This document shows positions 4,202-53,990 of a DNA stretch of 64,000 nucleotides, piece by piece. The DNA comes from Stenotrophomonas raiganjensis (SeqCode) (GTDB lineage Bacteria; Pseudomonadota; Gammaproteobacteria; Xanthomonadales; Xanthomonadaceae). The notes under the pieces were generated by a model that saw nothing but the letters and a program-made list of their open reading frames with translations, was not told where the DNA came from and did not search any database. Location: NCBI RefSeq assembly GCF_030658505.1, contig NZ_JAUTXR010000125.1, forward strand, positions 41,149 through 105,148, read 5' to 3'. The position numbers were made by a program, and so were the translations under genes. Position 1 is the first letter of the stretch; the number at the start of each line of letters is the position of its first letter.

Positions 4202-4232
4202 TTGGCGGCCCCGAAATTTTACACGCCAACAT

Positions 4233-4272: not shown

Positions 4273-4314
4273 TGATCCTCGTCGGCCCACCCGGGCCATA
4301 TGACGGGGTTCACC

Positions 4315-4638: not shown

Positions 4639-4751
4639 CCGCCGCCGAACGCGATCATCGCCACCACGTGGTGGCCGCTGTCGTCACGAATGCCCTGGCG
4701 TTCTGCCTGGGCGTGCTGGCCGCTGTGCTGGCGCAGGCGGTGCTTTCGTGA
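4635..4751 (+). CDS. Small single-span membrane protein, 38 residues
   Basis: Start ATG 4635 overlaps the previous stop (ATGA), and its stop overlaps GTG 4748 of the next gene (GTGA). The product has a His/Arg-rich N-terminus and one hydrophobic segment (NALAFCLGVLAAVLAQAVL). The double coupling supports real translation. Function unknown. Confidence 0.62.
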   Translation: MTAAERDHRHHVVAAVVTNALAFCLGVLAAVLAQAVLS

Positions 4752-5044: not shown

Positions 5045-5369
5045 GCACTGGAAAGTCGGCGAAGTCGAATGCGTGGCTGGCTTTCGGATCATTCCCAAGG
5101 AAGGCGGGAGTAGTGTCGCCATCGCCATCCAGCGTGATCCCAACGCTCATGGTCTGCACGGAATCACCGTCAGCGAAGCACTGGGTCACGCCCGCCTGAT
5201 CGCTGCCGCGCCGGAGATGTTTGAGGCCCTGGACACCATCGGCGGCCTCTCGCGTGCGCTTCGCCAAGGCGGTCCAGATCCGATGGATCTGCAAGGGCTG
5301 TCCGATGCGCTGGAAGAGGCAGTCGACTTGGCAAACAGCTTGGTCGCACAGATCGAAGGCCGCGCCTGA
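5034..5369 (+). CDS. Phage early-operon protein with an ARLIAAAPEM motif
   Basis: 111 residues: a beta-rich first half and a helical second half beginning HARLIAAAPEMFEAL (about 53-67). The same motif (ARLISAAPEM) occurs in a 95-residue protein of prophage 2 (46,650-46,937), so both belong to a small-protein family common in phage early operons. Role unknown. Confidence 0.72.
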   Translation: MSSKHWKVGEVECVAGFRIIPKEGGSSVAIAIQRDPNAHGLHGITVSEALGHARLIAAAPEMFEALDTIGGLSRALRQGGPDPMDLQGLSDALEEAVDLANSLVAQIEGRA

Positions 5370-5488
5370 TGCGCCTCCTGACCTTCCTCGGCTGCAGCAG
5401 TTGGCGCGACTTCGCCGCCTTCCTCGCCTGCTACGCCATCACCGCCTTGCTCGCAGCCGCCATGTGCTGGCCGCTGGCCTGGTCCTGA
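5369..5488 (+). CDS. Small membrane protein, 39 residues
   Basis: ATG 5369 shares its A with the previous stop (TGATG). The hydrophobic stretch DFAAFLACYAITALLAAAMC suggests one membrane span. The neighbouring small genes and the tight coupling support it; function unknown. Confidence 0.58.
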   Translation: MRLLTFLGCSSWRDFAAFLACYAITALLAAAMCWPLAWS

Positions 5489-5529
5489 CTTCCCGCCGGC
5501 GCGGCCGGCTCCTACGAGAGGCACCACCG

Positions 5530-6048
5530 ATGTTCCAACTCGATCAACACGATGCGGTGTTCTCGCATCTGAACCTGCGGAAGGAAAGGCACGGCGACGA
5601 AGACGCGGCCGCTGCTGATCTGAAGTTCTCGCTGAACGCTCCGAACACGATCCTCAACACCATCGACCCGGCCATCCTGCCGGCGTTCTGGAAGAAGGCC
5701 GACAAGGGCCAGCAGCAGAACCTGCCGATGGAAGGCAGCACGGACCTGGTGGCGCTGAATCTGCCGCTGCTGGGCGAGCAGGACATCACCGGCAAGTTCG
5801 AAGGCTACGAGCTGTCGATCGGCTCCCTGATGGACCACATCGATCCGGTGTTCTTCGCCGACGCCAAGGTGAAAAAGATCACCTGGAAGCCGCTCGAAGG
5901 CGGCAGCGTGGCCATGGGCTTCACCTGCTCGGTGCTGCTGGACGAAGACGAAGCGGCAGAGCTGCTGTCGGCATGGATCCGCGGCGAGGTGCGTCTGACC
6001 CTCACGCCGCCGAGCGCTGCCGCGCAGCAGGCCGACCTGGCCGCGTAA
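5530..6048 (+). CDS. Hypothetical phage protein upstream of the recombination genes
   Basis: 172 residues, acidic, with a well-mixed composition typical of a globular protein. It precedes the coiled-coil protein and the Bet/exonuclease pair, so a part in phage recombination or DNA handling is possible but not shown. No motif recognised. Confidence 0.75.
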   Translation: MFQLDQHDAVFSHLNLRKERHGDEDAAAADLKFSLNAPNTILNTIDPAILPAFWKKADKGQQQNLPMEGSTDLVALNLPLLGEQDITGKFEGYELSIGSLMDHIDPVFFADAKVKKITWKPLEGGSVAMGFTCSVLLDEDEAAELLSAWIRGEVRLTLTPPSAAAQQADLAA

Positions 6049-6131
6049 CGCATTCCCCCGCCCTCACGGGCCCCGCGCCGGCCGGGATTCCACGACGCCG
6101 GCATCTATTCCCATCCGACAAAGGAACTGCC

Positions 6132-7070
6132 ATGTCCGAAGCCCTGATTCCACTCGAATCCGTCAACGCCGTCGAGGTCTTCACCGGCGGCGGACTGGAC
6201 GACCTGCTGGCCCGCATCCGCGCTGAGGCCGTCACCCTGGTACCGAACGTCAAGACGGTTGCCGGCCGCAAGGAAATCGCCTCGATCGCCTATAAGGTGT
6301 CGCGCTCCAAGACCGCCATCGATGACGCCGGCAAGGCGCTGGTGGCCGACCTGAAGAAGCAGACCGGCGACATCGACTCGGCCCGCAAGAAGGCCCGCGA
6401 CACCCTGGACGCGCTGCGCGACGAAGTGCGCAAGCCGCTCACCGACTGGGAAGAAGAGCAGGCCCGCATCGAGCGCGAGCGCGCCGAGGCCGAGGAACGT
6501 GCCCGTGCTGAGGCCGAAGCGGCCCGCCTGGCCGAGATCGCCCGGAAGGAAGAAGAGATCCGCGCCCGCGAGGAAGCCGTGCGCGCCGCTGAAGAGGCAG
6601 AGCGCCAGCGCGTTGCAGCTGAGCAGGCCGAGCGTGAGCGCGTCGAGCGCGAGGCCCGCCTGCAGGCTGAGGCCGCAGAGAACGCGAAGCGCGAGGCAGC
6701 TGCTGCCGTGGAGCGTGCCGAACGTGAGGCGCGCGAAGCCACCGAGCGCGCGGCCCGTGAGGCAGCCGAAGCCGAGCAGCGCGCCAAGGATGCCGCCGAC
6801 AAGGCCGAGCGCGAAAAGGCCGAGGCCGTCGCCGCTGCCGAGCGCCGCGCCCACGAAGAAGCCGACCGCGCCGAACGCCAGCGCCAGGCCCAGGCCGATG
6901 CGCAGCGCAAGGCGGACGAGGCCCGCGCCGCCGACGTCGAACACCGCCGTTCGATCAACCGCGCCGCCATGGCCGCACTGATCGCACAGGGCATCAGCGA
7001 AGACGATGCCGCCACCGTCATAACCGCCATCGTGCAGGGCAAGGTCCCGGCCGTGGCCATCCGCTACTGA
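6132..7070 (+). CDS. Long coiled-coil phage protein
   Basis: 312 residues. A globular N-terminal part (about 1-110) is followed by about 160 residues rich in Ala, Glu and Arg with heptad character (for example EEEIRAREEAVRAAEEAERQ), then a short C-terminal domain ending in ITAIVQGKVPAVAIRY. ATG 6132 has the ribosome site aaggaa. It precedes bet by 7 bases. Automatic annotation may call such proteins TolA-like because of composition alone; a structural or recombination-accessory role is equally possible. Confidence 0.75.
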   Translation: MSEALIPLESVNAVEVFTGGGLDDLLARIRAEAVTLVPNVKTVAGRKEIASIAYKVSRSKTAIDDAGKALVADLKKQTGDIDSARKKARDTLDALRDEVRKPLTDWEEEQARIERERAEAEERARAEAEAARLAEIARKEEEIRAREEAVRAAEEAERQRVAAEQAERERVEREARLQAEAAENAKREAAAAVERAEREAREATERAAREAAEAEQRAKDAADKAEREKAEAVAAAERRAHEEADRAERQRQAQADAQRKADEARAADVEHRRSINRAAMAALIAQGISEDDAATVITAIVQGKVPAVAIRY

Positions 7071-7077
7071 GGCACCC

Positions 7078-8040
7078 ATGAACCAGATGACCAGCCGCGC
7101 CGCTGCCGGCGCCCTGATGACCAGCGAGCAGGCCGAAGCCATCCGCGGCGCGTTGAAGTCGAGCCTGTACCCGGGCGCCAGTGATGCGTCCATCGACATG
7201 GTGCTGAGCTACTGCCAGGCGGCCGGGCTCGACCCGATGACCAAGCCGGTGCACATCGTGCCCATGAAGGTGAAGATCGGCGAGAACCCCGACGGCACCG
7301 CCGTCAACGGCATGCGCGACGTGGTCATGCCCGGCATCGGCCTGTACCGCATCAACGCCTCCCGCACGGGCCAGTACGCCGGCTGCAGCGAACCCGAGTT
7401 CGGGCCGACCTGCACCATGGAGTCGGTGCGGGACGTGTGGTCGGATGGACCCAATGGGCGCAGGCAGAAGACGCAGAAAGCCTTCCAGCTGCACTACCCG
7501 GAATGGTGCCGCGTCACGGTACGCAAGCTGCTGGGTAGCCAGGTGGTCGAGTTCTCGGCCAAGGAATACTGGCTGGAGAACTACGCGTCCAAGAGCGATG
7601 GCAGTCCCAACGCCATGTGGGAAAAGCGCGCCTTCGGCCAGCTGGCGAAGTGCGCTGAGGCCCAGGCGCTGCGCAAGGCGTTCCCGGAAGCGGTCGGCTC
7701 CCAGCCCACCGCCGAGGAAATGGAAGGCAAGGACATCATCGATGCCGAATCTGTGCGCGCTGATCGCCGCCCCTCGACCGCTGGCGCCATCACCCGCCAG
7801 CAGCAGGCCGAGCCGCAGGACACCCCGGAGCGGCAGGCCCTGTACGCCAGCCTGCAGGAGTTCGCGGAGTGCGGCATGGAGGAATACCAGGGCGCATGGG
7901 GCCGCCTGACCAAGGAACAGCGGCAGCTGATCGGCACGGCCGGCCACGAAACCCTGAAGGGCATCGCCGACCGCGCCAGCGCCACTGTGGTTGAAGAAGG
8001 CGGCCAGCAGACCGCAGCCGATGAAGAGGTGCCGCTGTGA
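7078..8040 (+). CDS. bet: Single-strand annealing protein Bet (RecT/Red-beta family)
   Basis: 320 residues. The core (about 20-215) matches lambda Bet-like proteins, including AAGLDPMTKPVHIVPM and the GMRDVVMPGIGLYRINA stretch, with a conserved EKRAFGQLAKCAEAQALRKAFPE segment near 195. The C-terminal third is variable. It anneals complementary single strands made by the exonuclease encoded next to it (GTGA overlap at 8037). Together they give the phage RecA-independent recombination. Confidence 0.92.
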   Translation: MNQMTSRAAAGALMTSEQAEAIRGALKSSLYPGASDASIDMVLSYCQAAGLDPMTKPVHIVPMKVKIGENPDGTAVNGMRDVVMPGIGLYRINASRTGQYAGCSEPEFGPTCTMESVRDVWSDGPNGRRQKTQKAFQLHYPEWCRVTVRKLLGSQVVEFSAKEYWLENYASKSDGSPNAMWEKRAFGQLAKCAEAQALRKAFPEAVGSQPTAEEMEGKDIIDAESVRADRRPSTAGAITRQQQAEPQDTPERQALYASLQEFAECGMEEYQGAWGRLTKEQRQLIGTAGHETLKGIADRASATVVEEGGQQTAADEEVPL

Positions 8041-8816
8041 TCGTCATCGGGTGCGACCAGGGCAGCGAGGCGTGGCACCGCGCCCGCGCCGGCATCATCA
8101 CGGCCAGCATGTTCGCCACCGCGCGCTCGCGCGTGGGCGAGCTGACCGACCAGCAACGCACCTATGTGGACGCGGTGCTGTCCGGCCTGGCCGAGAGAAC
8201 CGCCATGGAGCGCGCCGGCTACAAGGCCGTGCCGCGCTCGGCCATCATCGAGAAGGCCATCGCCGGCGAGCCCATCGGCGACTTCAGCGAGGCCTCGAAG
8301 AACTACGCCTTCCGGCTTGCCATCGAACGCATCAGCGGCGAGCCGCTGGACGAGGGATTCGAGACGTTCGCCATGCGACGGGGTCATGAGCTGGAACCGC
8401 AGGCACGCGCCGAGCATGAGGTGCAGTCCGGGCTGCTGGTGAAGCGCGCAGGTTTCGTCCTGAGCGACTGCGGCGACTACGGCTGTTCGGCAGACGGCTT
8501 CATCGGCGAGGACGGCGGCAGCGAATACAAGTGCTTCATCAACCCCGAGAAGCTGCGTGCCTTCCACATCGACAACGATGCGAGCGAGGTGTTCGAGCAG
8601 GCCCAGGGCTGCATGTGGCTGACCGGCCGGCAGTGGTGGCACATCGGCCTGTACTGCCCGGCGCTGGCCGCCGTCGGCAAGCAGCTGTGGTGGCGCCGCT
8701 TCGACCGCGACGAGGCGTTCATCGCCAAGCTGCGCGCCGACCTGGAGCCATTCCGGCAAATGGTGGTCGGGTTCGAGCAGAGCCTGCGCGCTGACGACCA
8801 CCAGGAGGCGGCATGA
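8037..8816 (+). CDS. YqaJ/lambda-exonuclease family alkaline exonuclease
   Basis: 259 residues, GTG start overlapping the bet stop. Family features include QGSEAWHRARAGIITAS near the N-terminus, GHELEPQARAEHE (acidic metal ligand, about 120-132), and the catalytic pattern SADGFIGEDGGSEYKCF (about 150-167: D, E and K), followed by a Q-G-C-M-W helix. It digests one strand of duplex ends to feed the Bet protein. Confidence 0.92.
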   Translation: MIVIGCDQGSEAWHRARAGIITASMFATARSRVGELTDQQRTYVDAVLSGLAERTAMERAGYKAVPRSAIIEKAIAGEPIGDFSEASKNYAFRLAIERISGEPLDEGFETFAMRRGHELEPQARAEHEVQSGLLVKRAGFVLSDCGDYGCSADGFIGEDGGSEYKCFINPEKLRAFHIDNDASEVFEQAQGCMWLTGRQWWHIGLYCPALAAVGKQLWWRRFDRDEAFIAKLRADLEPFRQMVVGFEQSLRADDHQEAA

Positions 8817-9034
8817 AGGGCCTGAACTACTTCTACCCGCACCGGGGAACGATCCGTGGTGGCAAGGCCAAGGCGGCGCTCTTCGCCCGAGTGGTCGAGG
8901 GCAAGAGCTACACCATGCGCCAGATCGCCGAGCAGCTGGGCGTTTCGCTCACCACCGCAGACAGCCGGGTGAAGCGTGGCCCCTACCCGCTCACCTGGGA
9001 GAACCTCAGCAAGTCGCGCCTGGAGCAGCCATGA
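8813..9034 (+). CDS. Small helix-turn-helix protein
   Basis: 73 residues; MRQIAEQLGVSLTTADSRVKRG (about 35-56) is a helix-turn-helix resembling a MarR/sigma-like motif. Coupled to the exonuclease gene by an ATGA overlap. Probably a DNA-binding regulator; target unknown. Confidence 0.7.
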   Translation: MKGLNYFYPHRGTIRGGKAKAALFARVVEGKSYTMRQIAEQLGVSLTTADSRVKRGPYPLTWENLSKSRLEQP

Positions 9035-9252
9035 AGACCTGCACGAAGTGCGCGGCCCGGCTGCCGCTGCGGTTCTTCCCGCTGATCAACGGCAAGGCAA
9101 CCGCCGCGTGCGCGCCCTGCCGGAACACCGAGCGCCGCCTGCACGACCCGCTCCGGCCCCTGCGCCGCGATCCGCTGCAGGTCCGCCTGAACAACCTCAC
9201 CAACCTGTGGCACGGGCCAGTGCGCCGCGTGCCGCTTCGGAGCCACGCATGA
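9031..9252 (+). CDS. Small zinc-ribbon protein
   Basis: 73 residues with CTKC near the N-terminus and CAPC about 27 residues later, a four-cysteine zinc site, followed by a basic tail. ATGA coupling on both sides. Likely binds nucleic acid; no specific family. Confidence 0.7.
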   Translation: MKTCTKCAARLPLRFFPLINGKATAACAPCRNTERRLHDPLRPLRRDPLQVRLNNLTNLWHGPVRRVPLRSHA

Positions 9253-9650
9253 CCATCGACGTTATCGACAAGTGGGCGCGCGAGCTGCTGGCCGCGCAGT
9301 ACCGGGGCTATGGACGGAAGGCGAAGGCCATCCGCATCGCGCACAAGTCGCTCACCGAAGAAGACAACCGCGCACTGCGCGCTATCGCCGCGGCGCTCAC
9401 TTCCCATTGGCTGCCAATCAGCACGGCGCCGAAGGACGGAACCGGAATCCTCCTTTCCAACGGCAAGGACGTGGCTGAGGGACATTGGTACTTCGAGGAA
9501 GGCGGCACCACTGAGTATCGGGATCTGGATGGCCGCTACATCGGCCAGACGGATAGCGACGGCTACGCAGGCTGGCTCGATTGGGATGGCGGCATGCAGC
9601 CGGACCCTACCCATTGGCAGCCGCTGCCAGTAGCACCGGAGGTCGTATGA
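9249..9650 (+). CDS. DUF551-like phage protein
   Basis: 133 residues. The second half has the pattern WLPISTAPKDGTGILLSNG ... GHWYFE ... DPTHWQPLP typical of DUF551-type phage proteins, which share a W-x-P-I-x-x-A-P-x-D-G core and a terminal THWQPLP. A protein with the same core occurs in prophage 2 (39,690-39,980). Function unknown. Confidence 0.78.
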   Translation: MTIDVIDKWARELLAAQYRGYGRKAKAIRIAHKSLTEEDNRALRAIAAALTSHWLPISTAPKDGTGILLSNGKDVAEGHWYFEEGGTTEYRDLDGRYIGQTDSDGYAGWLDWDGGMQPDPTHWQPLPVAPEVV

Positions 9651-9937
9651 CCCACCACCGCTACGACCGCCGGCTGCCGAAGCGCACCGAGGGCTTCGCC
9701 TGGGGCCGGTCCATCGACAAGGTGCTGGGCGGCCACGTCCTCACCTACCGCCTGTTCCGCCGCGACCTGGCCGGAAAGCTGCACATCGAGACGCGGACGT
9801 TTCAGCTCAACGACCACCGCCGGCACATCGCGCTGCAGCTGCTGATCGCACGCCGCCAGCTGCGCGACCGCGTCGAAGCCATCGGCTATGCCCTGATCGA
9901 GGCCGAACAGGCCTCCCAACTGCAGGAGGTTGCATGA
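9647..9937 (+). CDS. Hypothetical basic phage protein
   Basis: 96 residues, Arg/His-rich, with a helical second half (HIALQLLIARRQLRDRVEAI). ATGA overlaps join it to both neighbours. Not recognised. Confidence 0.68.
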   Translation: MTHHRYDRRLPKRTEGFAWGRSIDKVLGGHVLTYRLFRRDLAGKLHIETRTFQLNDHRRHIALQLLIARRQLRDRVEAIGYALIEAEQASQLQEVA

Positions 9938-11124
9938 ACGATATCGACCAGACCGCGCTGGAAATCGCGCGAGCATTCATCCCGGTGGACGTGGTTGGCC
10001 AGCAGCGCGCCAACCTGCAGGTGGCCATCATCGAGGCCATCAAGAAGCACGCGAACCCGAAGACCCTGGCGGACGTGCAGCCCGGTGGGAGGGTGAGGCT
10101 GGGGGATGCGCCCTGGCCGGAGATCGACGCCATCCTGGCTGATGCATATTCCGCAGGCGCAGTGGGTCTGCCATTCGAAGGCGTCGCGCGCCGCCATGCT
10201 GTGCGTGCAGCCGTCGCCGCCCTCTCCGCCCAGCCATCCCCGGGTGGTCAGCGCGATTCGGACGAGGATGCCTATGTCATCGAAAGGCTGTCGGGTTTGC
10301 TGGCTGAAATCGCGGTGATCATCAACGGGCCGCAGCCCGCTGGCACTCGATGGAGCTACCACGATCTGCCCGAGAAGGTGCGTGCACTCGCCGCCCGCCA
10401 GCCGGTGGGGGAGCCGGTGGCAGCAACCGACGCAATGGTTGAGGCCGCACTTCAGTCCACCGTGGCGAACAACGCATCGCCATGGCGCCAGGTCGTATCT
10501 TCTGAGGATCATGCCGACTTCATCTCGGATATGCGGGCAGCAATCAACGCGGCTCTCGCTGCACGCCCCTCTCCAATTACGGCTGAAGCAACCACCACCT
10601 CAACGCAGACGGTTCCGGATCACTGCGACCGCATCTTCTGGCAGCACAACTACTATCAGCTCCCCATTGGTCCCACTGACCAAAAGAAGCCGACGAAGCG
10701 CAGGCAGGCTGCTGTGGAAACCGTGCTGAGCTTGGGCTACTTGTGGCGCAACGACGAATGGACCGCCCCGCCCGCGCAGGCCGATCAGGAATATCTGGAG
10801 AGTTTGGATCGCGCCCTGGAAGGTGTCATCGACCAGCGCGACCGCTGCGAAGAAGTAGCCGACGAGCTGGCCGACCACATCGCTCGGATCACTGGCGTAG
10901 ATATCGGCGAGCACAGCAGCGCCAACTGCCCGTGGCAGAACGCCATTGAGGCAGCCGAGGAGTACAAGCCCGCGCAGGCCGTGGAGCTGGGGCAGTTCCG
11001 TGCGCTCGCCGAGTTTGGCGAGGAGTTCGCGCTCAGTGCCGAGAAGCAGCCGCAGTCCCGTGTGATCTATGCACAGGCACGCCGCCTGCTGGCCCTGATC
11101 GACAGCCAGGCGGTGGGCGAATGA
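9934..11124 (+). CDS. Large mosaic early-operon protein, paralogue in prophage 2
   Basis: 396 residues without a known domain. It looks modular: a short LADVQPGGRVRLG motif (about 48-60), Pro-rich linkers, and a block from about 165 to 242 that is almost identical to a block of the 370-residue protein at 50,192-51,304. At DNA level 10,423-10,658 and 50,585-50,820 differ at about four of 236 bases. The last third is helical. Sharing of segments between the two prophages indicates recent recombination. Confidence 0.75.
   Translation: MNDIDQTALEIARAFIPVDVVGQQRANLQVAIIEAIKKHANPKTLADVQPGGRVRLGDAPWPEIDAILADAYSAGAVGLPFEGVARRHAVRAAVAALSAQPSPGGQRDSDEDAYVIERLSGLLAEIAVIINGPQPAGTRWSYHDLPEKVRALAARQPVGEPVAATDAMVEAALQSTVANNASPWRQVVSSEDHADFISDMRAAINAALAARPSPITAEATTTSTQTVPDHCDRIFWQHNYYQLPIGPTDQKKPTKRRQAAVETVLSLGYLWRNDEWTAPPAQADQEYLESLDRALEGVIDQRDRCEEVADELADHIARITGVDIGEHSSANCPWQNAIEAAEEYKPAQAVELGQFRALAEFGEEFALSAEKQPQSRVIYAQARRLLALIDSQAVGE
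10423..10658 (+). repeat. 236-bp segment nearly identical between the two prophages
   Basis: It matches 50,585-50,820 with about four mismatches and no gaps, in the same orientation, 40,162 bp apart, inside paralogous genes. It is the longest near-identical stretch seen between the two prophages and could support recombination between them. Confidence 0.9.
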
Positions 11125-11645
11125 GCCCCGCCCATCCATATGCTGCCCGGCCGGAGGCAGTCACTCACACGTGGCTGACTCCTCCAGAGATCATCGCGGC
11201 ACTCGGCGCGTTCGACCTGGACCCGTGCGCTGCGCCATCACCGCGTCCGTGGCCGACCGCCATCCGACACATTGAACTGCCGGAAGATGGCCTGACTGCG
11301 GAGTGGCATGGCCGGGTGTGGTGCAACCCGCCGTTCGGTCGTCACACCGAGGCATGGCTGGCGCGCATGGCGGACCACGGAAACGGGATTGCGCTGGCGT
11401 TCGCCCGCACCGAGACGGCCATGTTCCAGCATTACGTGTGGCGTCGCGCCAGTGCCGTTCTGATGCTGGCAAACCGGCCTCACTTCCACCGGCCAGACGG
11501 CACCCGCGCACGTGGCAATAGCGGGGGACCGATCTGCCTGATCGCATATGGCGACGCAAACCGCCGCGCCTTGATCGACAGCGGCCTACCCGGCGCGGTC
11601 ATCGTCGTGCACCACTTCCAGCAGAAGGAGTCGCCCCATGGCTGA
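11121..11645 (+). CDS. Phage DNA N6-adenine methyltransferase (Dam type)
   Basis: 174 residues. HTWLTPPEIIAALGAFDLDPCA at the N-terminus and the catalytic motif NPPFGR (about 69-74), then a SAM-fold region ending ARGNSGGPICLIAYG, match the phage N6-adenine methylase family. It would methylate adenine in phage DNA, possibly against host restriction. ATGA overlap with the previous gene. Confidence 0.9.
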   Translation: MSPAHPYAARPEAVTHTWLTPPEIIAALGAFDLDPCAAPSPRPWPTAIRHIELPEDGLTAEWHGRVWCNPPFGRHTEAWLARMADHGNGIALAFARTETAMFQHYVWRRASAVLMLANRPHFHRPDGTRARGNSGGPICLIAYGDANRRALIDSGLPGAVIVVHHFQQKESPHG

Positions 11646-11790
11646 CCAGCTGCTCACCGCTGCAATGGTCCACGTGCTCGCCCTGGCCGGGTTTGCGGCC
11701 GGCATCGCCACCCTGTGGGCGATCAGCCGCGCATGCCGCGCCGCGCGCAATGGGCTGCGCTGGTGCTGGCGGAGGGGCGCTCATGGCTGA
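11638..11790 (+). CDS. Small membrane protein, paralogue of 51,297-51,446
   Basis: 50 residues with one hydrophobic span (HVLALAGFAAGIATLWAI) and a basic C-terminal tail. The gene overlaps the methylase stop by 8 bases. A near-identical protein is encoded in prophage 2. This conservation in two phages supports a real product; function unknown. Confidence 0.72.
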   Translation: MADQLLTAAMVHVLALAGFAAGIATLWAISRACRAARNGLRWCWRRGAHG

Positions 11791-12049
11791 GGCAATCGAC
11801 CACCGCGAGGTCGGCCGGCAGCTGGCCAGCATCGAAGGCGTGAACCTGGAATCCGCCTCGCCGGCAACGCTGCGCCTGTGGGATGCCCGTGGCCTCGCCC
11901 TGATGGCTCTGGCACGTGGCGACAAGGTCGAGGCGGAGAAGGTGATGCGCCAGTTCAAGCCGGCAACCCGGATGTGCGGCGGCTGCGGCGAGACGGACCC
12001 GAGCAAGCGCTGCCTCGGCTGCCTTCACGACTTCGGGGAGCCGCGATGA
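11783..12049 (+). CDS. Small protein with C-terminal zinc ribbon
   Basis: 88 residues; a helical N-terminal part, then CGGCGETDPSKRCLGC near the end, a four-cysteine zinc site. Overlaps both neighbours. Not recognised beyond the metal site. Confidence 0.7.
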   Translation: MAEAIDHREVGRQLASIEGVNLESASPATLRLWDARGLALMALARGDKVEAEKVMRQFKPATRMCGGCGETDPSKRCLGCLHDFGEPR

Positions 12050-12228
12050 ACGCCCAGCTCTTCCCCCGCGAACCGCGCCGCATGAAGCAGCCGGCCAAGG
12101 ACGTGCTGCGCGAGCAGCTGGTGGTCGCGGCCGATGAAGTGATCCGCCTGCGCGCAGAGGTTCTGCGCCTGCGCGATGCAGCAACCCAGGCCACCGAGCA
12201 GCTGCGCGCTGCGCTGGCCACGAACTGA
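12046..12228 (+). CDS. Small helical protein, 60 residues
   Basis: Mostly coiled-coil-like sequence (LRAEVLRLRDAATQATEQLR). ATGA overlap with the previous gene. Function unknown. Confidence 0.62.
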   Translation: MNAQLFPREPRRMKQPAKDVLREQLVVAADEVIRLRAEVLRLRDAATQATEQLRAALATN

Positions 12229-12239
12229 AGGAGGACAAC

Positions 12240-12455
12240 ATGGCCGACAGCCCCTACCTGTCCCGTGACGATATCAAGGCGCTCTGCCGCACACCGCGGC
12301 GCAAGGGCCAGGCCGAGTTTCTGCGCAACAACGGGATCCGGCACTATCTGGACGCCCACGGGTGGCCAGTGGTGCTGTGGTCCGCGATCGAGGGCAAGCC
12401 GGAGCCGAAGACGCCGCCGGCGACGGACTGGAAACCGAACAAGGCAGCAGCGTAA
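12240..12455 (+). CDS. DUF4224-like protein, excisionase candidate
   Basis: 71 residues beginning LSRDDIKALCRTPRRKGQ, then a conserved NGIRHYLDAHGWPVVLW core, the DUF4224 pattern. These small proteins sit immediately upstream of phage integrases and are likely directionality factors or their relatives. A ribosome site (ggagg) precedes ATG 12240. The stop overlaps the integrase start (TAATG). Confidence 0.78.
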   Translation: MADSPYLSRDDIKALCRTPRRKGQAEFLRNNGIRHYLDAHGWPVVLWSAIEGKPEPKTPPATDWKPNKAAA

Positions 12456-13483
12456 TGGGAAGGAAACCGAAGAAGCCGGGGGCTATCCCCCGGTTCCGCC
12501 CGCGCAAACAGAAATCCGGCGTGGTGCACTACTACTACGACCACGGCGGCAAGCCGCGCAAGGAAACTGCGCTGGGCAGTGATTACGGCCTGGCCATCCA
12601 GAAGTGGGCCGAGCTCGAGCGCGCGGCGACGATCCCGACCGATGCGAAGTTGACGTTCCGGCAGGCCGCCGAGCGCTACCGCATCGAGGTGATTCCGACC
12701 AAGGCCGAGGGCACGCGCAAGGCGAACCTGCGCGAGCTGGACACGCTGCTGAAGTTCTTCGACGATCCACCGGGACCGCTCGATGCCATCCGGCCGACGC
12801 ACGTGTTCAATTATCTGCAGTGGCGCCGCGCTGCGCCGGTGAGCGCGAACCGCGAGAAATCGCTGCTGTCGCACCTGTGGAACTGGTGTCGCAAGAAGGG
12901 CTACACAGACCTGCCGAACCCATGCGCGGGCGTGAACCGCAACCGTGAGGACGGCCGCGACGTGTACGTGGAGGATGACGTGTTGCAGCGCGTGTACGAC
13001 GCCGCCGACCAGGTGCTGAAAGACGCGATGGACCTGGCCTACCTGACTGGCCAGCGGCCGGCGGACGTGCGCGAGCTGGACCGCCGCAACATCAAGGACG
13101 GAGTGCTGGTGTTGCGCCAGAGCAAGACGAAGATGCAGATGCGCATCGCCATTACCGGCGAGCTGAAGGTGTTGATCGACCGCCTGCTGTCCAGGAAGCG
13201 GCCGGACGATGCGCCGATCAGCACGCGCCTGCTGCTGGGCGAAGACTGGCTTCCGATCGGCAAGGACGCGCTGCGCTACCGCTTCGATCGGGCACGCGAA
13301 CGTGCTGGCATCCCGAAGGACCAATTCCAGTTCAGGGATCTGCGAGCCAAGGCCGGCACCGACAAGGCCGATTCGGCAGGCGACATTCGGAAAGCACAGC
13401 AGCAGCTCGGCCACCAGTCGGTGACCACGACAGAGATCTATGTGCGGAAGCGCCGCGGTGCGTTGACCAGCCCGACGAAGTGA
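12455..13483 (+). CDS. int: Tyrosine integrase of prophage 1
   Basis: 342 residues. Arm-type N-terminal region (about 1-55), SAM-like core-binding domain (about 65-155) and catalytic domain (about 165-335). Catalytic residues visible: Arg201 (TGQRPAD), Lys in QSKTK (about 226), Arg297 in FRDLRAKAGT where the usual His is Arg294, His320 (QLGHQS) and the nucleophile Tyr329 (EIYVRK). ATG 12455 was chosen because it overlaps the upstream stop. It integrates into the 3' end of tRNA-Lys, whose 48-bp fragment lies 60 bp downstream. Confidence 0.95.
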   Translation: MGRKPKKPGAIPRFRPRKQKSGVVHYYYDHGGKPRKETALGSDYGLAIQKWAELERAATIPTDAKLTFRQAAERYRIEVIPTKAEGTRKANLRELDTLLKFFDDPPGPLDAIRPTHVFNYLQWRRAAPVSANREKSLLSHLWNWCRKKGYTDLPNPCAGVNRNREDGRDVYVEDDVLQRVYDAADQVLKDAMDLAYLTGQRPADVRELDRRNIKDGVLVLRQSKTKMQMRIAITGELKVLIDRLLSRKRPDDAPISTRLLLGEDWLPIGKDALRYRFDRARERAGIPKDQFQFRDLRAKAGTDKADSAGDIRKAQQQLGHQSVTTTEIYVRKRRGALTSPTK

Positions 13484-13484
13484 A

Positions 13485-13510
13485 TTGCGGAGCGGTCTAT
13501 ATTTTGCGGA
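13485..13510 (+). promoter_or_regulatory. Candidate integrase arm sites right of int, prophage 1
   Basis: Two TTGCGGA repeats (13,485-13,491 and 13,504-13,510), 19 bp apart, lie between the integrase stop and the att core. The same repeat pair with the same spacing follows the integrase of prophage 2 (53,873 and 53,892). Confidence 0.5.
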
Positions 13511-13542
13511 GCGAGGGAGAAGGGTTGAAACCCTTGGTGCAT

Positions 13543-13590
13543 ATGGTGGGCCGTGAAGGATTCGAACCTTCGACCAAAAGATTAAAAGTC
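13543..13590 (-). repeat. att site between the two prophages (48-bp fragment of tRNA-Lys)
   Basis: It is identical to 53,943-53,990, covering the 3' end of tRNA-Lys from CCA through the T arm to the anticodon stem. The sequence diverges at 13,591, so the tRNA here is incomplete and cannot function. It is the right end of prophage 1 and the left end of prophage 2. Confidence 0.95.
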
Positions 13591-44697: not shown

Positions 44698-45402
44698 ATG
44701 CGACCAGTCGACGAAATTCGCAGGGACAACCTGCGCGCCCTGATATCCCGCCACGGCGGCCAGAGAGCCTTTGGCGATGCAGCCGGCATCAAGAGCCCTG
44801 CCCAGATAAGCCAGTGGGTGAACGGCTCCAAGAACTCTGCGACGGGAAAGCCGCGCGTCATGTCGGGCGCAACCGCGCGGGCTATCGAGACCTCTCTGGG
44901 ACTGTCGCTGGGCTGGCTTGATACGGAACACGACTCTGACCAGGTCAAAGCGCCTCCCGTCCCATCACCTGAGACGACCCCGGGTTACGTTCGCTTCGAA
45001 CTGTTTGAAGGGGGCGCGGGAATGGGTGCGGGACTGGTGAATCAGGATTTCCCAGAGGTGGTTAAGACCATTGAGCTGGCCGAATGGGAAGTCCGCAGGA
45101 AGCTCGGCTACCTCCCCAGGCCCGGTCGAATCCAGCTCATCACTGGTCGCGGTCCATCGATGCGACCGAAGCTGGAGGACGGCGACATAGTCTGGATCGA
45201 CACCAGCTGTGACTACTTCGACGGCGATGACTACTACCTGATCAACATCGGCGGCGAAACCCAGATAAAGATGCTGCAAAAGCGCGGGGATGGTCTGTAT
45301 GTGGTCAGTGTCAATTCTGACTTCCCGGCCTATCGACCCGATCCTGGTGATGTAACCGTGCTAGGCAAGGCTCTGCTGCATGCCGGCGTGCGGAAGTTCT
45401 GA
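44698..45402 (+). CDS. CI-type repressor of prophage 2, S24 peptidase domain
   Basis: 234 residues. The N-terminal domain has the helix-turn-helix QRAFGDAAGIKSPAQISQWV (about 22-41). The S24 domain has GPSMRPKLEDGD (Ser154) and QIKMLQKRG (Lys191). It should bind the TTAGC-N5-GCTAA operators and be cleaved on SOS induction. It is only weakly similar to the prophage 1 repressor in the DNA-binding domain, in line with different operators. Confidence 0.93.
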   Translation: MRPVDEIRRDNLRALISRHGGQRAFGDAAGIKSPAQISQWVNGSKNSATGKPRVMSGATARAIETSLGLSLGWLDTEHDSDQVKAPPVPSPETTPGYVRFELFEGGAGMGAGLVNQDFPEVVKTIELAEWEVRRKLGYLPRPGRIQLITGRGPSMRPKLEDGDIVWIDTSCDYFDGDDYYLINIGGETQIKMLQKRGDGLYVVSVNSDFPAYRPDPGDVTVLGKALLHAGVRKF

Positions 45403-47806: not shown

Positions 47807-48361
47807 ATGACGTTGAACGCCATCACCATCCGCACCAAGGGTGAAGCGGAGATCTTCATCTCCGGCGAAACCCTCCGCCCTGGGCACCTGATCGAGCTCG
47901 ATGCCGATCAGTCCATCCACCAGTACGCCACCGGCCACACGAAGCTGTTCGCCGACGGCAACAGCGCTGCGGGCACCGATCCGCGCACCGATCATGTCGC
48001 TCTGATCGATCACTCCACGGGCCTGATGTGGGCCGTGAAGTCCATCGGCGACAACGATGGCGATCCGATGAGCCAGGCCGACTGCGAGAAGGCCTGCAGC
48101 GAGCTGCGCCTGCTCGGCCACGACGACTGGCGCCCGCCCACCCGCGCCGAGCTGTCCGCACTGGTCGATGAAACCCGCCACGAGCCAGCCATCGATACCG
48201 CGCTGTTCCCCGGCGTGCTGTCCCGCTGGCACTGGACCAGCACGCCCTGCGCCTGGTCCTCGGCGTCCGCGTGGGGCGTCTATTTCGGCGACGGCTACGT
48301 CGGCTACCTCCACCGCGACGGCAGCGGGTTCGCGTTGGCCGTGCGTCGTGCCGGTCAGTGA
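47807..48361 (+). CDS. DGR variable protein, DUF1566/C-type-lectin-like fold
   Basis: 184 residues. Residues about 65-184 fit DUF1566: DHSTGLMWAV (about 68-77), ADCEKACSELRLLGHDDWRPP (abridged to the DWRPP core, about 105-109), ALFPGVLSRWHWTSTP (about 132-147). The last 36 residues are the variable repeat, beginning AWSSASAW and ending FALAVRRAG. DUF1566 domains take a lectin-like fold that displays variable residues. ATG 47807 is close to its ribosome site (gaggaa), so TTG 47813 may be the true start. What it binds is unknown. Confidence 0.88.
   Translation: MTLNAITIRTKGEAEIFISGETLRPGHLIELDADQSIHQYATGHTKLFADGNSAAGTDPRTDHVALIDHSTGLMWAVKSIGDNDGDPMSQADCEKACSELRLLGHDDWRPPTRAELSALVDETRHEPAIDTALFPGVLSRWHWTSTPCAWSSASAWGVYFGDGYVGYLHRDGSGFALAVRRAGQ
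48250..48355 (+). repeat. DGR variable repeat (VR)
   Basis: 106 bp, ungapped against the template at 48,893-48,998 with 90 identities. All 16 differences are at template A (changed to G, T or C). Invariant ends: 25 bp at the 5' side (48,250-48,274) and 31 bp at the 3' side (48,325-48,355), the latter playing the role of the initiation-of-mutagenic-homing region. The next base is C in VR and G in TR. VR ends at the gene's last codons. Confidence 0.97.
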
Positions 48362-48387
48362 TTTGATTTTCTGCTGAGGCTTTCTCG

Positions 48388-48831
48388 ATGACTTCCCGCT
48401 TCCAGCCCCCACCCATCATCAAGGCCGCCGAACGCATGGCGGTCGAGATCGAAAACGCCGTGCGCCGGTTCGCCCGCTACCACCGCTATCAGATCGGTAG
48501 CGACCTCCGCGCGCGTGCCCAGCAGGTGTTCATCAACGCCAACAACGCCTGGCGCGAACGCGCCGAGCAGGCGCGATGGGTGACGGTGCTGGTGCGGGAT
48601 ATCGATGCCCTCAAGCAGCTTCTGCAGATTGGCAAGGGGGTTGGCGCGTTCGCCAGCTTCCGCCAGTTCGAAGTGCTTATTCGCCTGGCAGAACAGCTGG
48701 GCTCCCAGGCTGGCGGCTGGCGCCGCCACCTGGCTGGTTCCTCCCATGCCCAGAATGCGCAAGCCGATGGCGCCGCGCAGCGTGGCAAGAAACTGAGTAC
48801 CCGTACCGCCCTCGCGGGGGCCAACTCATGA
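48388..48831 (+). CDS. avd: DGR accessory variability determinant (Avd)
   Basis: 147 residues, basic and mostly helical: MAVEIENAVRRFARYHRYQI (about 16-35), then long helices consistent with the four-helix bundle of Avd. In Bordetella phage DGR it forms a pentamer that binds reverse transcriptase and template RNA. It lies between target and RT as there. The stop overlaps the RT start (ATGA). Confidence 0.92.
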   Translation: MTSRFQPPPIIKAAERMAVEIENAVRRFARYHRYQIGSDLRARAQQVFINANNAWRERAEQARWVTVLVRDIDALKQLLQIGKGVGAFASFRQFEVLIRLAEQLGSQAGGWRRHLAGSSHAQNAQADGAAQRGKKLSTRTALAGANS

Positions 48832-50195
48832 CGAAGCCGCGCTATCCGCATCCGGGCTGCGCGGCCTGGTCGAAAGTGTATGGGGAGGCGGCCGCCTGGT
48901 CCTCGGCGTCCGCGTGGAACGTCAATTTCAACAACGGCAACGTCAACAACAACCACCGCAACAACAACGGGTTCGCGTTGGCCGTGCGTCGTGCCGGTGA
49001 GTTTCAGGGAGAGGTAGGCCTGCAGGAGTTGTATCAGGCATGGCGGCGCGCACGCCGCCAGAAGGTTCCTAGCTTCAACCAGCTGCGATTCGACCACCGC
49101 TGGGCAGACGGCCTGCTCCAGCTGCAGCGCGAGCTGCTGGCCGGCAGCTGGGCGCCGAGCCCGTCGACGTGCTTCGTGGCAACCCGGCCCAAGGCGCGCG
49201 AGATCCACGCGCCGGACTTCGCCGACCGCGTGGTGCACCACTGGCTGGTGCCCCAGCTGGAGGCGCTGTGGGAGCCGACGTTTATCCACGACAGCTACGC
49301 CAACCGCAAGGGCCGCGGCAGCCACGCGGCTGTGCGCCGGGCCCAGCAGTTCGTGCGCCAGGTGCACAGCGGCCAAGGCGGCGGCTGGTATCTGCAGCTG
49401 GACGTGGCCAATTTCTTCAACAGCATCCACAGGCCCACCCTGTGGCGGATGCTGCGCACGCGGCTGCAGCGCCAAGGCGCACCCAAGGTGGTCCAGCAGG
49501 CCACTCACGCGCTGCTGCGCCGCTCTCCGCTGCACGCGGGCGTGCAGTATCGGGCAACGGTCGCCGAGCAGGCTCAGGTGCCGGCGCACAAGCGCCTCGC
49601 CAATGCGCCGGTCGGGCGGGGCCTGCCGATAGGCAACCTGTCCAGCCAGTTCTTCGCCAACGTCTACCTGGACGCGCTGGACCAGTTCGCCAAGCACGTG
49701 CTGAAGGCAAAGCGCTACCTGCGCTACGTCGATGACTTCGTGCTGTTCCATCAGGACCGCGAGCAGCTTGCGTCCTGGCGCGACCAGATCGAGGCCTTCC
49801 TGAGCGACCAGCTCGGGCTGCGCCTGAAGGCCGAGCAGAAGCTCTGCCGCCTCACGGACGGACTGGACTTCCTTGGCTACGTGATCTACCCGACCCACAC
49901 CCTCGCTCGCCGCCGGGTGGTCGGACACCTGCACACCGCGCTGGCCGAGTGGGAAGGGAAGCACGTCGAGGGCGGCAAGCTGCGAGGCATACCGGCCAAC
50001 TTCCGCGACCTGGCCAACCGCATTGCCAGCTTCACCGGCCACCTACATCACGCAAGCAGCCATCGGCTGATGCGCCGTGTCCATGCCCGATTCCCCTGGC
50101 TGCGTTCTGCAGCCCGTCCGCGCCGGTTCAGCCACAGGGCAGAACGGCGCATCCATTCGATCAAGTGGCACCAGCACAAGGAGCAGCACGTATGA
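48828..50195 (+). CDS. DGR reverse transcriptase
   Basis: 455 residues from ATG 48828. Residues about 22-57 are the translated template repeat, rich in Asn. The RT domain starts near 65: conserved elements PKAREIHAPDFADRVVHHWL, SYANRKGRGSHAAV, LQLDVANFFNSI (catalytic Asp192), GLPIGNLSSQFFANVYLDAL (about 265-284) and RYVDDFVLF (Asp302, Asp303). The thumb follows to about 370. The GLPIGNLSSQ motif is typical of the DGR group. Starting downstream of the template (for example TTG 49028) is possible, but ATGA coupling to avd favours 48828. Confidence 0.95.
   Translation: MTKPRYPHPGCAAWSKVYGEAAAWSSASAWNVNFNNGNVNNNHRNNNGFALAVRRAGEFQGEVGLQELYQAWRRARRQKVPSFNQLRFDHRWADGLLQLQRELLAGSWAPSPSTCFVATRPKAREIHAPDFADRVVHHWLVPQLEALWEPTFIHDSYANRKGRGSHAAVRRAQQFVRQVHSGQGGGWYLQLDVANFFNSIHRPTLWRMLRTRLQRQGAPKVVQQATHALLRRSPLHAGVQYRATVAEQAQVPAHKRLANAPVGRGLPIGNLSSQFFANVYLDALDQFAKHVLKAKRYLRYVDDFVLFHQDREQLASWRDQIEAFLSDQLGLRLKAEQKLCRLTDGLDFLGYVIYPTHTLARRRVVGHLHTALAEWEGKHVEGGKLRGIPANFRDLANRIASFTGHLHHASSHRLMRRVHARFPWLRSAARPRRFSHRAERRIHSIKWHQHKEQHV
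48893..48998 (+). repeat. DGR template repeat (TR)
   Basis: 106 bp with 23 adenines, 22 of them in 11 AAY codons. Located 643 bp downstream of VR in the same orientation, inside the 5' end of the RT reading frame. It provides the RNA copied with errors at A into VR. Confidence 0.97.
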
Positions 50196-51304
50196 GCAAC
50201 GACAAAACAACCCTGGCGGACGTGCAGCCCGGTGGGAGGGTGAGGCTGGGGTATAGGCTGCCGGAAGCCGTGGCCCGAGCCCTCGCCACTGTGAACGAAG
50301 CAGCCAACGATGCTCGGCACGCTGGCAACTACAAGGTAGCGAATGCACTGGTCATCGCACGCGTCACCCTGAGCAAGCAGCTGCTCGCCCTCCACGCCCA
50401 GCCCTCCCCGGGTGGTCAGGATGCGCTGGCAACTGCACGCGAGCTGTTGGCCACTGAGTACGACAAGGCCGGCGAAAGGGTCTTCGCTGATCGTGCTCGG
50501 AAGGGGCAGTACGACAATGATCCGGACGTCCACGCCATCGTGGCCGCCCTCGCCGCCCGCCAGCCGGTGGTGGAGCCGGTGGATGCAACCGACGCAATGG
50601 TTGAGGCCGCACTTCAGTCCACCGTGGCGAACAACGCATCGCCATGGCGCCAGGTCGTAGCTTCTGAGGATCATGCCGACTTCATCTCGGATATGCGGGC
50701 AGCAATCAGCGCGGCTCTCGCTGCACGCCCCTCTCCAATTACGGCTGAAGCAACCACCACCTCAACGCAGACGGTTCCGGATCACTGCGACCGGATCTTC
50801 TGGCAGCACAACTACTATGAGCTACCCGTTGGGCCTACTGATCAGAAGAAGCCCACGAGGCGCAGGCAGACCGCGGTTGAAACCTTGCTGAATCTGGGCT
50901 TCATGTGGCGAAACGGCGCATGGATCGCCCCACCCGCGCAGGCCGTGGACCTGGGGCAATTCCGGGAGGCGGTTGCATATGCCGCTCGTTCGGCCGACTT
51001 CGCTACCCACGTGGAAATAGGGAGCAAGCTGCGCGAACTGCTGGCCCTGATCGACGGCAAGGCGGCTGGCAATGGGAAGTCAGTTCGAATCGCTGATCTG
51101 GAACAGATCCTTCTCGACCCGGAAAACCAGCCGAGCCAGTTCGGGACGGTCCCCACCGAGCTGCTGGAAAAGTGCGAGGAAATGATCTCGGATCTTGTAC
51201 ACCAGTTTGGCGACCGTGGATGCACCTGCACTTTCCCAGAGGCTGATTGCTGCGCCTACGCACGTGCCGAACACTATTCTCGCGATGGTGCCGCCCATGG
51301 CTGA
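50192..51304 (+). CDS. Mosaic early-operon protein, paralogue of 9,934-11,124
   Basis: 370 residues. Shares LADVQPGGRVRLG near the start and a block of about 80 residues (VEAALQSTVANNASPWRQVV and on) almost identical with the prophage 1 protein. A C-terminal Cys-rich part (CTCTFPEADCCAYARAEH) differs. It starts in an ATGA overlap with RT. Function unknown; a link to the DGR is not shown. Confidence 0.72.
   Translation: MSNDKTTLADVQPGGRVRLGYRLPEAVARALATVNEAANDARHAGNYKVANALVIARVTLSKQLLALHAQPSPGGQDALATARELLATEYDKAGERVFADRARKGQYDNDPDVHAIVAALAARQPVVEPVDATDAMVEAALQSTVANNASPWRQVVASEDHADFISDMRAAISAALAARPSPITAEATTTSTQTVPDHCDRIFWQHNYYELPVGPTDQKKPTRRRQTAVETLLNLGFMWRNGAWIAPPAQAVDLGQFREAVAYAARSADFATHVEIGSKLRELLALIDGKAAGNGKSVRIADLEQILLDPENQPSQFGTVPTELLEKCEEMISDLVHQFGDRGCTCTFPEADCCAYARAEHYSRDGAAHG
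50585..50820 (+). repeat. Copy of the 236-bp segment shared with prophage 1
   Basis: Nearly identical to 10,423-10,658 (about four mismatches, no gaps), same orientation. Confidence 0.9.
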
Positions 51305-52598: not shown

Positions 52599-52818
52599 CA
52601 AGATCATGCGGCCTGGCGCGCACGGCGATGTGGCGGAGCTGACAGGCGCACACACCAAGCGCAGGCAGATCCAGAACCTGGCCCGGAATGGCATCCCCCA
52701 TACCATCAACGCAGCCGGTTGGCCCGTGGTGATGTGGTCGGCTGTCGATGGGTCTGCGAAGAAGGCGCCCGATGTTGACGGTGGCTGGTCAAGCAACGCT
52801 ATGAGGCCCGCAGCGTAA
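52585..52818 (+). CDS. Excisionase candidate upstream of integrase
   Basis: 77 residues from GTG 52585 (ribosome site gggagg, 6-base spacing). HTKRRQIQNLARNGIPHTIN and GWPVVMW echo the DUF4224-like protein before the first integrase (NGIRHYLDAHGWPVVLW). Stop overlaps the integrase start (TAATG). Probable directionality factor. Confidence 0.7.
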   Translation: MSAADKIMRPGAHGDVAELTGAHTKRRQIQNLARNGIPHTINAAGWPVVMWSAVDGSAKKAPDVDGGWSSNAMRPAA

Positions 52819-53870
52819 TGGGACGACGCTCTAAGGATCCTGGTGCCATCCCACACATGCGGAAGCGTGTGCGGGGCAAGACCACGTATTACTTCTTCGA
52901 CCACGGCGGAAGACCGCGCCGCGAAACGCCCCTGGGCAAGAGCTACCCGGAGGCGGTGCGCAAGTGGGCGGAGCTGATGGCCACCGAAGCAGCTGTACCG
53001 GAAATTGTCACCTTCAGGGACGCCGCCGCACGATACAAGCAGTTGGTGATCCCCAAGAAGCGCGCATCAACGGCCAAGGTCAATCTGGCAGAACTAGCAA
53101 AGCTCGAGGAATTCTTCTGCAATCCGCCGGCGCCGCTGGCCAAGATTCGGCCACTACATGTTCGGCAGTACCTTGATTGGCGAACCAAGAACGGGGCGGT
53201 CGCAATGGTCAGCGCCAATCGAGAAAAGGCGCTGCTGAGCCATCTGTGGAACAAGTGCAGGGAATGGGGCTTCACCGACGCGGAGAACCCTTGCAAGGGC
53301 GTGCGTGGTTACGGCGAAGCAGGCCGCGATGTGTACGTCGAGGACGACGTATACCGGGCAGTGTGGGATGCAGCAGATCAGCCGCTGCGTGACGCGCTGG
53401 ATCTGGCCTATCTAACAGGTCAACGCCCTTCGGACGCCCTCAGCATGGACAGGCGGGACGTGCGCGATGGCTTCCTGCATATCAGCCAGAGCAAGACGAA
53501 GCACAAGCTGCGCATTGCCATTGAGGGGGAGCTGGCCGAACTGCTGGTGCGCTTCGGCGCCAGGACGTTCAAGCGGCGCGGAAAGCAAAAAGGTGCGGTG
53601 ATTGTGCACACGGCGCTTCTGCTGGATGAGTACGGGCAGCCGCTGAGCAAGGGCCAGCTTCGAAGCCGATTCGATGCAGCGCGCGCACGTGCAGGCGTTG
53701 CCAAGGCGGCATTCCAGTTCCGGGATCTGCGGGCCAAGGCCGGCACGGACAAGGCAGATGCGGCGGCGGACATTCGCCAGGCGCAGCGACAGTTGGGCCA
53801 CTCGTCTGTGGTGATGACCGAGACCTACACGCGAAAGCGCAAGGGCGATCGGGTAACCCCTACGAAGTGA
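52818..53870 (+). CDS. int: Tyrosine integrase of prophage 2
   Basis: 350 residues, clearly homologous to the prophage 1 integrase throughout. Arg203 (TGQRPSD), Lys in QSKTK (about 228), Arg305 in FRDLRAKAGT, His328 (QLGHSS) and nucleophile Tyr337 (TETYTRK). ATG 52818 is coupled to the upstream gene. The gene ends 73 bp before the att copy in the intact tRNA-Lys, its target. Confidence 0.95.
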   Translation: MGRRSKDPGAIPHMRKRVRGKTTYYFFDHGGRPRRETPLGKSYPEAVRKWAELMATEAAVPEIVTFRDAAARYKQLVIPKKRASTAKVNLAELAKLEEFFCNPPAPLAKIRPLHVRQYLDWRTKNGAVAMVSANREKALLSHLWNKCREWGFTDAENPCKGVRGYGEAGRDVYVEDDVYRAVWDAADQPLRDALDLAYLTGQRPSDALSMDRRDVRDGFLHISQSKTKHKLRIAIEGELAELLVRFGARTFKRRGKQKGAVIVHTALLLDEYGQPLSKGQLRSRFDAARARAGVAKAAFQFRDLRAKAGTDKADAAADIRQAQRQLGHSSVVMTETYTRKRKGDRVTPTK

Positions 53871-53942: not shown

Positions 53943-53990
53943 ATGGTGGGCCGTGAAGGATTCGAACCTTCGACCAAAAGATTAAAAGTC
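53943..53990 (-). repeat. Right att site of prophage 2 inside tRNA-Lys
   Basis: The 48-bp core identical to 13,543-13,590. Here it is part of a complete tRNA, so integration has kept the gene whole. Confidence 0.95.

Follow-up and report, generated by a model that had tools for sequence, protein, structure and literature searches.

The mechanistic work on diversity-generating retroelements (DGRs) that was found in the open-licence literature rests on the element of Bordetella phage BPP-1, in which the essential RNA follows the template repeat (TR). According to one report (PMC12875486), the spacer between the TR and brt, the reverse transcriptase (RT) gene of this phage, folds, recruits bRT-Avd and primes the complementary DNA (cDNA), and reverse transcription is brought to a stop by a motif at the avd 3' end; another (PMC3240598) places a hairpin after the variable repeat (VR). 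The RNA ends of retrons are described as paired, with the priming G of the cDNA either within the 5' strand or just after it (PMC6868368). Overlap of a TR with the RT open reading frame (ORF) has already been noted (PMC3521204), the Group 3 DGR architecture of Schillinger et al. 2012 is counted among the closest known systems, and the DGR of Stenotrophomonas sp. SKA14, as described by Yan et al. 2019 (PMC6642488), has DUF1566 targets, as here, and several VRs, as in relatives. The present work deals with a DGR at positions 47,807–50,195 of a 64,000-nucleotide (nt) stretch of Stenotrophomonas raiganjensis DNA (assembly GCF_030658505.1, contig NZ_JAUTXR010000125.1, positions 41,149–105,148), referred to as the window.

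We consider it quite probable that this is an intact DGR, the TR of which lies inside the RT ORF and directly behind a covarying 5' RNA predicted to recruit both RT and Avd and to initiate template copying. What sets it apart is a 5' RNA with a closing helix conserved beyond the clade of the locus, along with the fact that this RNA and the template have both become part of the frame that encodes the RT. No description of such a 5' RNA was found in the open-licence papers searched.

The repeats and the genes

The VR (48,250–48,355, plus strand) and the TR (48,893–48,998, plus strand) align without gaps over 106 bp and differ at 16 positions. Each of these is an adenine in the TR, replaced in the VR by G in 11 cases, by T in four and by C in one; with 23 A in the TR, the hypergeometric probability that all 16 fall on A is 6.6e-14. 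The preliminary description of the locus was exact on this point. The register is lost at the first base past the repeat, which is C48356 after the VR and G48999 after the TR. The target gene (47,807–48,361, plus strand; 184 amino acids, aa) carries the VR at the C terminus of a C-type-lectin-like Lcl_C (DUF1566) domain (Pfam PF07603; 87.4 bits for a cut-off of 34.9), the placement expected of a DGR. The structure model of the target has a predicted local distance difference test (pLDDT) value of 87, its best PDB match being the C-terminal domain of Legionella Lcl (8q4e, E 9e-5), and among eight matches to viral models at E ≤ 0.001 are DUF1566 proteins and one tail fibre protein.

The target is followed by avd (48,388–48,831, plus strand; 147 aa), the product of which was identified through PHROG 3206 (Avd protein of DGR, E 3.2e-15), being under the cut-off for both Pfam bAvd and NCBIfam DivGenRetAVD. 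The RT gene (48,828–50,195, plus strand; 455 aa, PHROG 1423, E 1e-99) begins at an ATGA that overlaps the avd stop codon, and encodes a leader (residues 1–21), the TR-derived stretch (residues 22–57) and the RT core from about residue 61, with the GLPIGNLSSQ and YVDD motifs that had been reported for it. All three ORFs are open. BPP-1 brt is a tblastn match of this RT (30.5% identity, E 1e-34), and in a tree with long branches, and with no retron RT included, the protein groups with that of BPP-1 and other DGR RTs, separate from three group II intron RTs, with a support of 100; placement outside the DGR clade, the outcome looked for as a check, was thus not found. The score with the retron model NF038233 (46 bits for a cut-off of 235) does not indicate a retron-type RT. 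By its RT, Avd and Lcl_C target the locus is a DGR, and a complete, probably working one in a Stenotrophomonas prophage, as first proposed. The proposed BPP-1 gene order needs correction: the TR is not placed between avd and the RT gene but inside the latter, the ATG of which, at 48,828, precedes it.

A structured RNA before the template repeat

Relatives of the locus were drawn from genome contigs (the best 80 of 552) and viral contigs (the best 80 of 600); 98 loci with an RT-core score of at least 430 make up the close set, in which the window is counted once and its own copies (L001 and L002 in our numbering of loci) are excluded. In comparisons among 85 loci (3,440 pairs), the difference at fourfold-degenerate sites, about 0.55 in the body of avd, falls to 0.19–0.32 in the last 30 avd codons and to 0.29 in the RT leader; past the TR and the few flanking bases that take part in helix P0 (described below), it rises to 0.62 and stays at the RT background. 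A spacer of the BPP-1 type 3' of the TR was considered as a candidate and rejected, there being neither room for it nor synonymous constraint past the TR and P0 flank.

Folding of 52 loci less than 90% alike yielded five helices within an element (48,743–48,893, plus strand) that overlaps the 3' end of avd and the RT leader and ends at the TR. Four of them are P1 (48,748–48,750/48,784–48,786), P2 (48,756–48,760/48,775–48,779), P5 (48,836–48,842/48,859–48,865) and P3 (48,800–48,806/48,878–48,884), the last of which links the 3' end of avd with the end of the leader. The 3' strand of P4 (48,808–48,811/48,818–48,821) overlaps the Shine-Dalgarno-like G run of the RT gene, so that this helix covers the RT ribosome site. 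Across the 52 loci, 97.3% of 1,246 cells are paired, compared with 27–53% when the partners are slid, and double changes are found in 20 of 24 pairs, for a total of 184 double-change cells against 38.9 after shuffling (0 of 500 shuffles as high).

An independent test was provided by an RNA model of the element, R1, trained on the 52 close-clade loci only. Of 63 distant DGR loci, 26 have an R1 match at E ≤ 0.05, on the RT strand in every case; 13 of the 16 matches at E ≤ 0.001 end at most 9 nt from the TR start, the other three being partial and ending 70–249 nt before the TR. The element also adjoins the TR in distant loci with the TR outside the RT ORF (for example L026, L019, L018 and L021). 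A scan of 297 genomes of the family gave 14 matches at E ≤ 0.001, of which 11 are strong (the window's own included) and all beside a DGR RT, and three are weak, with no DGR RT beside them. No Rfam family, RF03018 included, matches positions 48,350–49,250 at E ≤ 1, and at the Rfam gathering score neither RT-14 nor RT-15 has a match in the 24 distant R1-match loci scanned.

A closing helix and a candidate priming nucleotide

The element and the far side of the TR are connected by a six-base-pair helix, P0, formed by GAAACU (48,789–48,794, plus strand), which immediately precedes the invariant G of an ACUG, and AGUUUC in the TR 3' flank (49,000–49,005, plus strand). P0 was first spotted by eye in these same sequences; a CUGA/UCAG pairing, guessed at first for the TR 3' flank, was abandoned in its favour. 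The anchor motifs ACTGAG and GAGT are in place in 89 of 89 distinct loci, and the three P0 pairs that they leave free are all formed in 86 of the 89 (mean 2.97 of 3), whereas 2,000 shuffles gave 39.5 such loci on average and never more than 53. These free pairs occur as A-U, C-G and U-A versions, with further double changes; natural relatives have, for instance, GACACU/AGUGUC or GAUACU/AGUAUC as their P0 strands. Beyond the close set, the P0 motif was found in 27 of 30 distant loci with an R1 match (E up to 0.26), and 15 of the 27 pair at six of six positions within a stretch of 28 bases at the 3' end of the TR, the TR end itself being uncertain in some of those that do not; swapped flanks gave a mean of 4.8 such loci (highest 10) and random stretches a mean of 1.2 (highest 5). 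The base directly 3' of the first P0 strand, G48795 (plus strand), is invariant in 52 of 52 rows. Complementary ends that close on a conserved G are thus found here as in retrons and, because this G sits beside P0 as the priming G does in retrons, G48795 is put forward by analogy as the putative nucleotide from which the cDNA is primed.

With both parts of the RNA described, the possibility can be considered that the DGR is an ordinary one of the BPP-1 type, with a functional spacer RNA 3' of the TR hidden in the RT coding sequence, and 5' conservation that reflects a stop signal for reverse transcription. The terminating motif reported for the avd 3' end of BPP-1 (PMC12875486) would be a precedent, and the element does end at the TR start, where the cDNA would stop. 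We regard this as unlikely by taking into account the return of fourfold sites to the RT background just past the TR and P0 flank, and P0 itself, by which the element is tied to the far end of the TR and for which a stop signal would have no need. The RT phylogeny (105 rows) also speaks against it: a branch with a support of 98 separates loci with the 5' RNA from BPP-1 and Bacillus phage BalMu-1, and from three more loci (L186, L188 and L190) labelled as 3' by assumption, evidence for a 3' RNA being at hand only for BPP-1 and BalMu-1. The five labels need four changes on this tree, the minimum; it is a quick tree with long branches, in which the 5' label includes weak R1 matches and 33 rows are unlabelled.

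The template repeat within the reverse transcriptase reading frame

A TR was found in 96 of the 98 close loci (none in L130 and L152), and in all 96 it lies within the RT ORF; in the window it is in the same codon frame there as the VR in the target. These fused loci, 30 of 89 of which were taken into the RT tree, form one clade with a support of 100. In 88 of the 89 distinct loci an ATGA or GTGA is found in the RT frame, the TGA of which ends an upstream ORF of at least 80 codons, taken as avd; L142 has the ATGA and a short upstream ORF. The lengths of leader and linker preserve the frame across the close loci. In three loci (L124, L155 and L160) leader and TR differ in frame, and the RT frame is recovered by a compensating shift 3' of the TR; on the RT tree L124 lies apart from the sisters L155 and L160, which implies at least two frame-shift events. 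The TR-encoded stretch is Thr-rich in these three loci and Asn-rich in most relatives, so that its sequence seems unimportant, and, the RT model being disordered over residues 1–60 (pLDDT < 50, and high beyond), the TR-encoded tail is probably passive.

The alternative of an RT start within or past the TR, with a leader frame that is incidental, was weighed on 85 loci (L124, L155, L160 and the truncated L157 excluded). Possible internal starts (GTG, TTG or ATG) are found within the TR in 79 of them, and some start codon within 14 codons past the TR in 44, an ATG in four; the RT model, ordered from residue 61 only, would also agree with a late start. The first two of these counts weigh against a start at the leader, and the small number of ATG codons in favour of it. 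A late start is nonetheless improbable, given the conservation of the ATGA and of the G run, present 5' of the leader ATG in 84 of the 85 loci and doubling as part of helix P4, the compensation of the frame shifts, and six loci of 85 with no start codon either within the TR or in the next 14 codons.

The same overlap of the P4 3' strand with the G run before the ATG at 48,828, and the ATGA shared by avd and the RT gene, could instead mean that the 5' fold serves to control translational coupling of the two genes, by hiding the RT ribosome site in P4, and is no retroelement RNA. This explanation is very unlikely: the element adjoins the TR also in loci such as L026, L019, L018 and L021, where the TR is outside the RT ORF, and P0 reaches across to the TR 3' flank.

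The way in which the fusion came about may be glimpsed in a few relatives. L026, an unfused sister in which TR and RT are separate, has an ORF (5713–5986) that starts at the corresponding ATG, at 5713 inside the RNA element, crosses the whole TR and ends beyond the start of the RT frame, an arrangement that looks like a possible intermediate of the TR-RT fusion. Several distant loci have GAGTGA where GAGTnT is found here, and it is plausible, by this comparison, that the fusion arose by loss of a stop codon. TR-containing RT genes are also seen in Vibrio phage VP585 (L186, 2752–4029), Aeromonas phage phiARM81mr (L188, 2773–4059) and Burkholderia phage Magia (L185, 2815–4098), and a template within the RT frame may have had more than one origin.

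Boundary of the variable repeat and diversification among relatives

A VR 3' boundary motif, CAG followed by a T-rich stretch (48,356–48,373, plus strand), was seen in 135 distinct VR flanks and is a candidate initiation-of-mutagenic-homing signal. CAG is present at the boundary of 160 of 161 VRs as opposed to GAG at that of the TR, a one-base mark of donor and recipient, with the TR boundary itself having been located through its GAGT. The T-rich motif of the 135 VRs (about CAGTaATtgGccTTTTTG) stands where BPP-1 has its hairpin, and may be a recipient signal. No BPP-1-type hairpin was detected after the 161 VRs (mean best stem 3.46, compared with 3.58 after shuffling). The preliminary claim that the locus has every known part of a working DGR therefore does not hold as worded: there is no conserved spacer after the TR and no hairpin after the VRs of the clade, and an RNA precedes the TR instead.

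Diversification could be followed in 57 pairs of relatives with a flank difference of at most 7%, none of which involves the window itself. Eleven of them, identical in VR and flank, were excluded (six probably the same genome in two collections and five viral-contig pairs without divergence). In the remaining 46, mutually non-independent, pairs the VRs differ at 61% of adenine sites, at 1.2% of other sites and at 4.9% of flank positions. When the TR is identical (32 pairs), there are 451 differences at adenine sites and 0 at other sites. Thus, in relatives, the VR diversifies while the TR stays, as is characteristic of a DGR. That the locus is a decayed DGR, with TR and VR as relics without diversification, is hardly credible in view of this adenine-only divergence and of the open ORFs, although five viral-contig pairs with identical VRs and flanks (L122/L123 twice, L134–L136) could be read in that sense.

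In L005 (2640–2747), L013 (1996–2118), L015 (1519–1620) and L109 (2579–2684), other Lcl-like genes some 4 kb upstream of the TR hold extra VRs, so that targets at a distance share a single TR. Two targets in tandem are present in many relatives, versus one in the window.

Prophage setting

The DGR is part of a siphophage prophage of 40.4 kb (13,543–53,990), bounded by 48-bp repeats (13,543–13,590 and 53,943–53,990) that are part of tRNA-Lys. Terminase, portal, head, tape-measure and tail genes are on the minus strand; the DGR is on the plus strand, apart from the tail genes, with a CI-like repressor (44,698–45,402, plus strand) on its left and an integrase (52,818–53,870, plus strand) on its right. 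The ORF next after the RT gene (50,192–51,304) starts at an ATGA in which the RT gene also stops, an overlap like that between avd and the RT gene, and its product has a weak match to PHROG 4023 (E 0.003). When the RT gene and TR were searched against their own genome, this RT and this VR were the sole matches (E ≤ 0.001), and an RT at E ≤ 1e-30 is found in 4 of 91 genomes of the genus. Positions 1–13,543 of the window hold part of a second prophage in tandem with the first, with its own CI-like repressor (2,976–3,665), RecT-like and exonuclease-like genes, and an integrase (12,362–13,483) directly 5' of the tRNA-Lys repeat at 13,543.

Proposed mechanism

The following sequence of events would be consistent with these data. 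Ribosomes likely start at the ATGA at 48,828, in coupling with avd, and go on across both RNA fold and TR, and the RT is likely to carry the resulting TR-encoded stretch as a disordered tail. One transcript would be both mRNA and template. The 5' fold, which is predicted to attract RT and Avd and to set off template copying, would be held by P0 against the 3' end of the template, and the cDNA would begin at P0 and run back across the TR to the fold. Adenine-mutated cDNA would then replace the VR at the C/G boundary base, varying the lectin-like end of the target.

Several points weigh against this proposal. RNA, translation and priming are all deduced from DNA sequence. P0 and P1–P5 were defined on the same sequences on which they were then counted, and in the close clade three of the six P0 pairs are fixed by the anchor motifs. 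R1 has no match at E ≤ 0.05 in 37 of the 63 distant DGR loci, nor at E ≤ 10 in the phages that carry the RT-15 RNA, discussed below. The RT frame is open across the TR also in 20 of 58 distant TR-bearing loci, which do not have this leader, and the TR is part of the RT gene as annotated for phages Magia, VP585 and phiARM81mr. Finally, the ratio of non-synonymous to synonymous substitutions, tried as proof of leader translation, was dropped, the leader being constrained as RNA, for which reason codon statistics are not decisive on read-through of the TR.

A broad group of DGRs appears to carry its essential RNA before the template. A template embedded in the RT coding sequence would make translation and reverse transcription share one RNA, a natural feedback. 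Furthermore, a construct modelled on BPP-1, used to transfer such a DGR to other hosts as a mutagenesis tool, would omit the RNA that is needed.

Comparison with known systems

With the BPP-1 DGR the present locus shares the succession of target, avd, TR and RT core, the adenine-specific TR/VR differences, a DGR-type RT and a C-terminal VR. The differences are that the TR of BPP-1 lies outside the annotated brt and is followed by a 144-nt spacer, whereas here it is inside the RT ORF, and that here an RNA fold precedes the TR, no hairpin follows the VR and the target is not in the tail module. The resemblance to BPP-1, as judged from sequence, is therefore superficial.

Two Rfam families, on which no paper was found in the open-licence literature, appear to be DGR RNAs because they lie beside DGR template repeats, RT-14 on the 3' side and RT-15 on the 5' side. 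RT-14 (RF02921) matches in Bacillus phage BalMu-1 (L189, 2834–2977) directly 3' of the TR, so that it is like the present element in adjoining a DGR TR and differs from it in its BPP-1-type placement. RT-15 (RF03018, from Pseudomonas, Burkholderia and Shewanella phages) was matched in four of eight DGR phages scanned (L183–L185 and L187), and in all four it ends at the TR start, as the element does here. It also has the same layout, with a long-range stem after a short stem and hairpin, and, as judged by eye, a P0-like pairing of six of six bases in one phage and five of six in three, with a G after each. The RTs of the RT-15 phages form a clade separate from that of the close loci, and kinship between RT-15 and the 5' element rests on place and layout, since neither model matches the loci of the other. 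P0 makes a retron-like cDNA start directly testable, and suggests a role for RT-15.

Retron msr-msd RNAs are similar in the order of structured RNA, template and RT, and in the complementarity of their ends. The present locus differs from them in its DGR-type RT, its TR/VR pair and its Avd, and in a closing helix of 6 bp rather than of about 8–30 bases. Taken together, these comparisons make it likely that a second DGR layout exists, in which copying is predicted to start from the side opposite to that of BPP-1. More tentatively, and with a little less than even confidence, we propose that DGR guide RNAs come in two mirror-image layouts, a 3' spacer type, with BPP-1 and RT-14, and a retron-like 5' type, with this clade, its distant relatives and RT-15, in which P0 would close the RNA and the 2'-OH of the invariant G would prime the cDNA; in the clade of the present locus both guide RNA and template would have moved into coding sequence, and the RT mRNA would be its own template.

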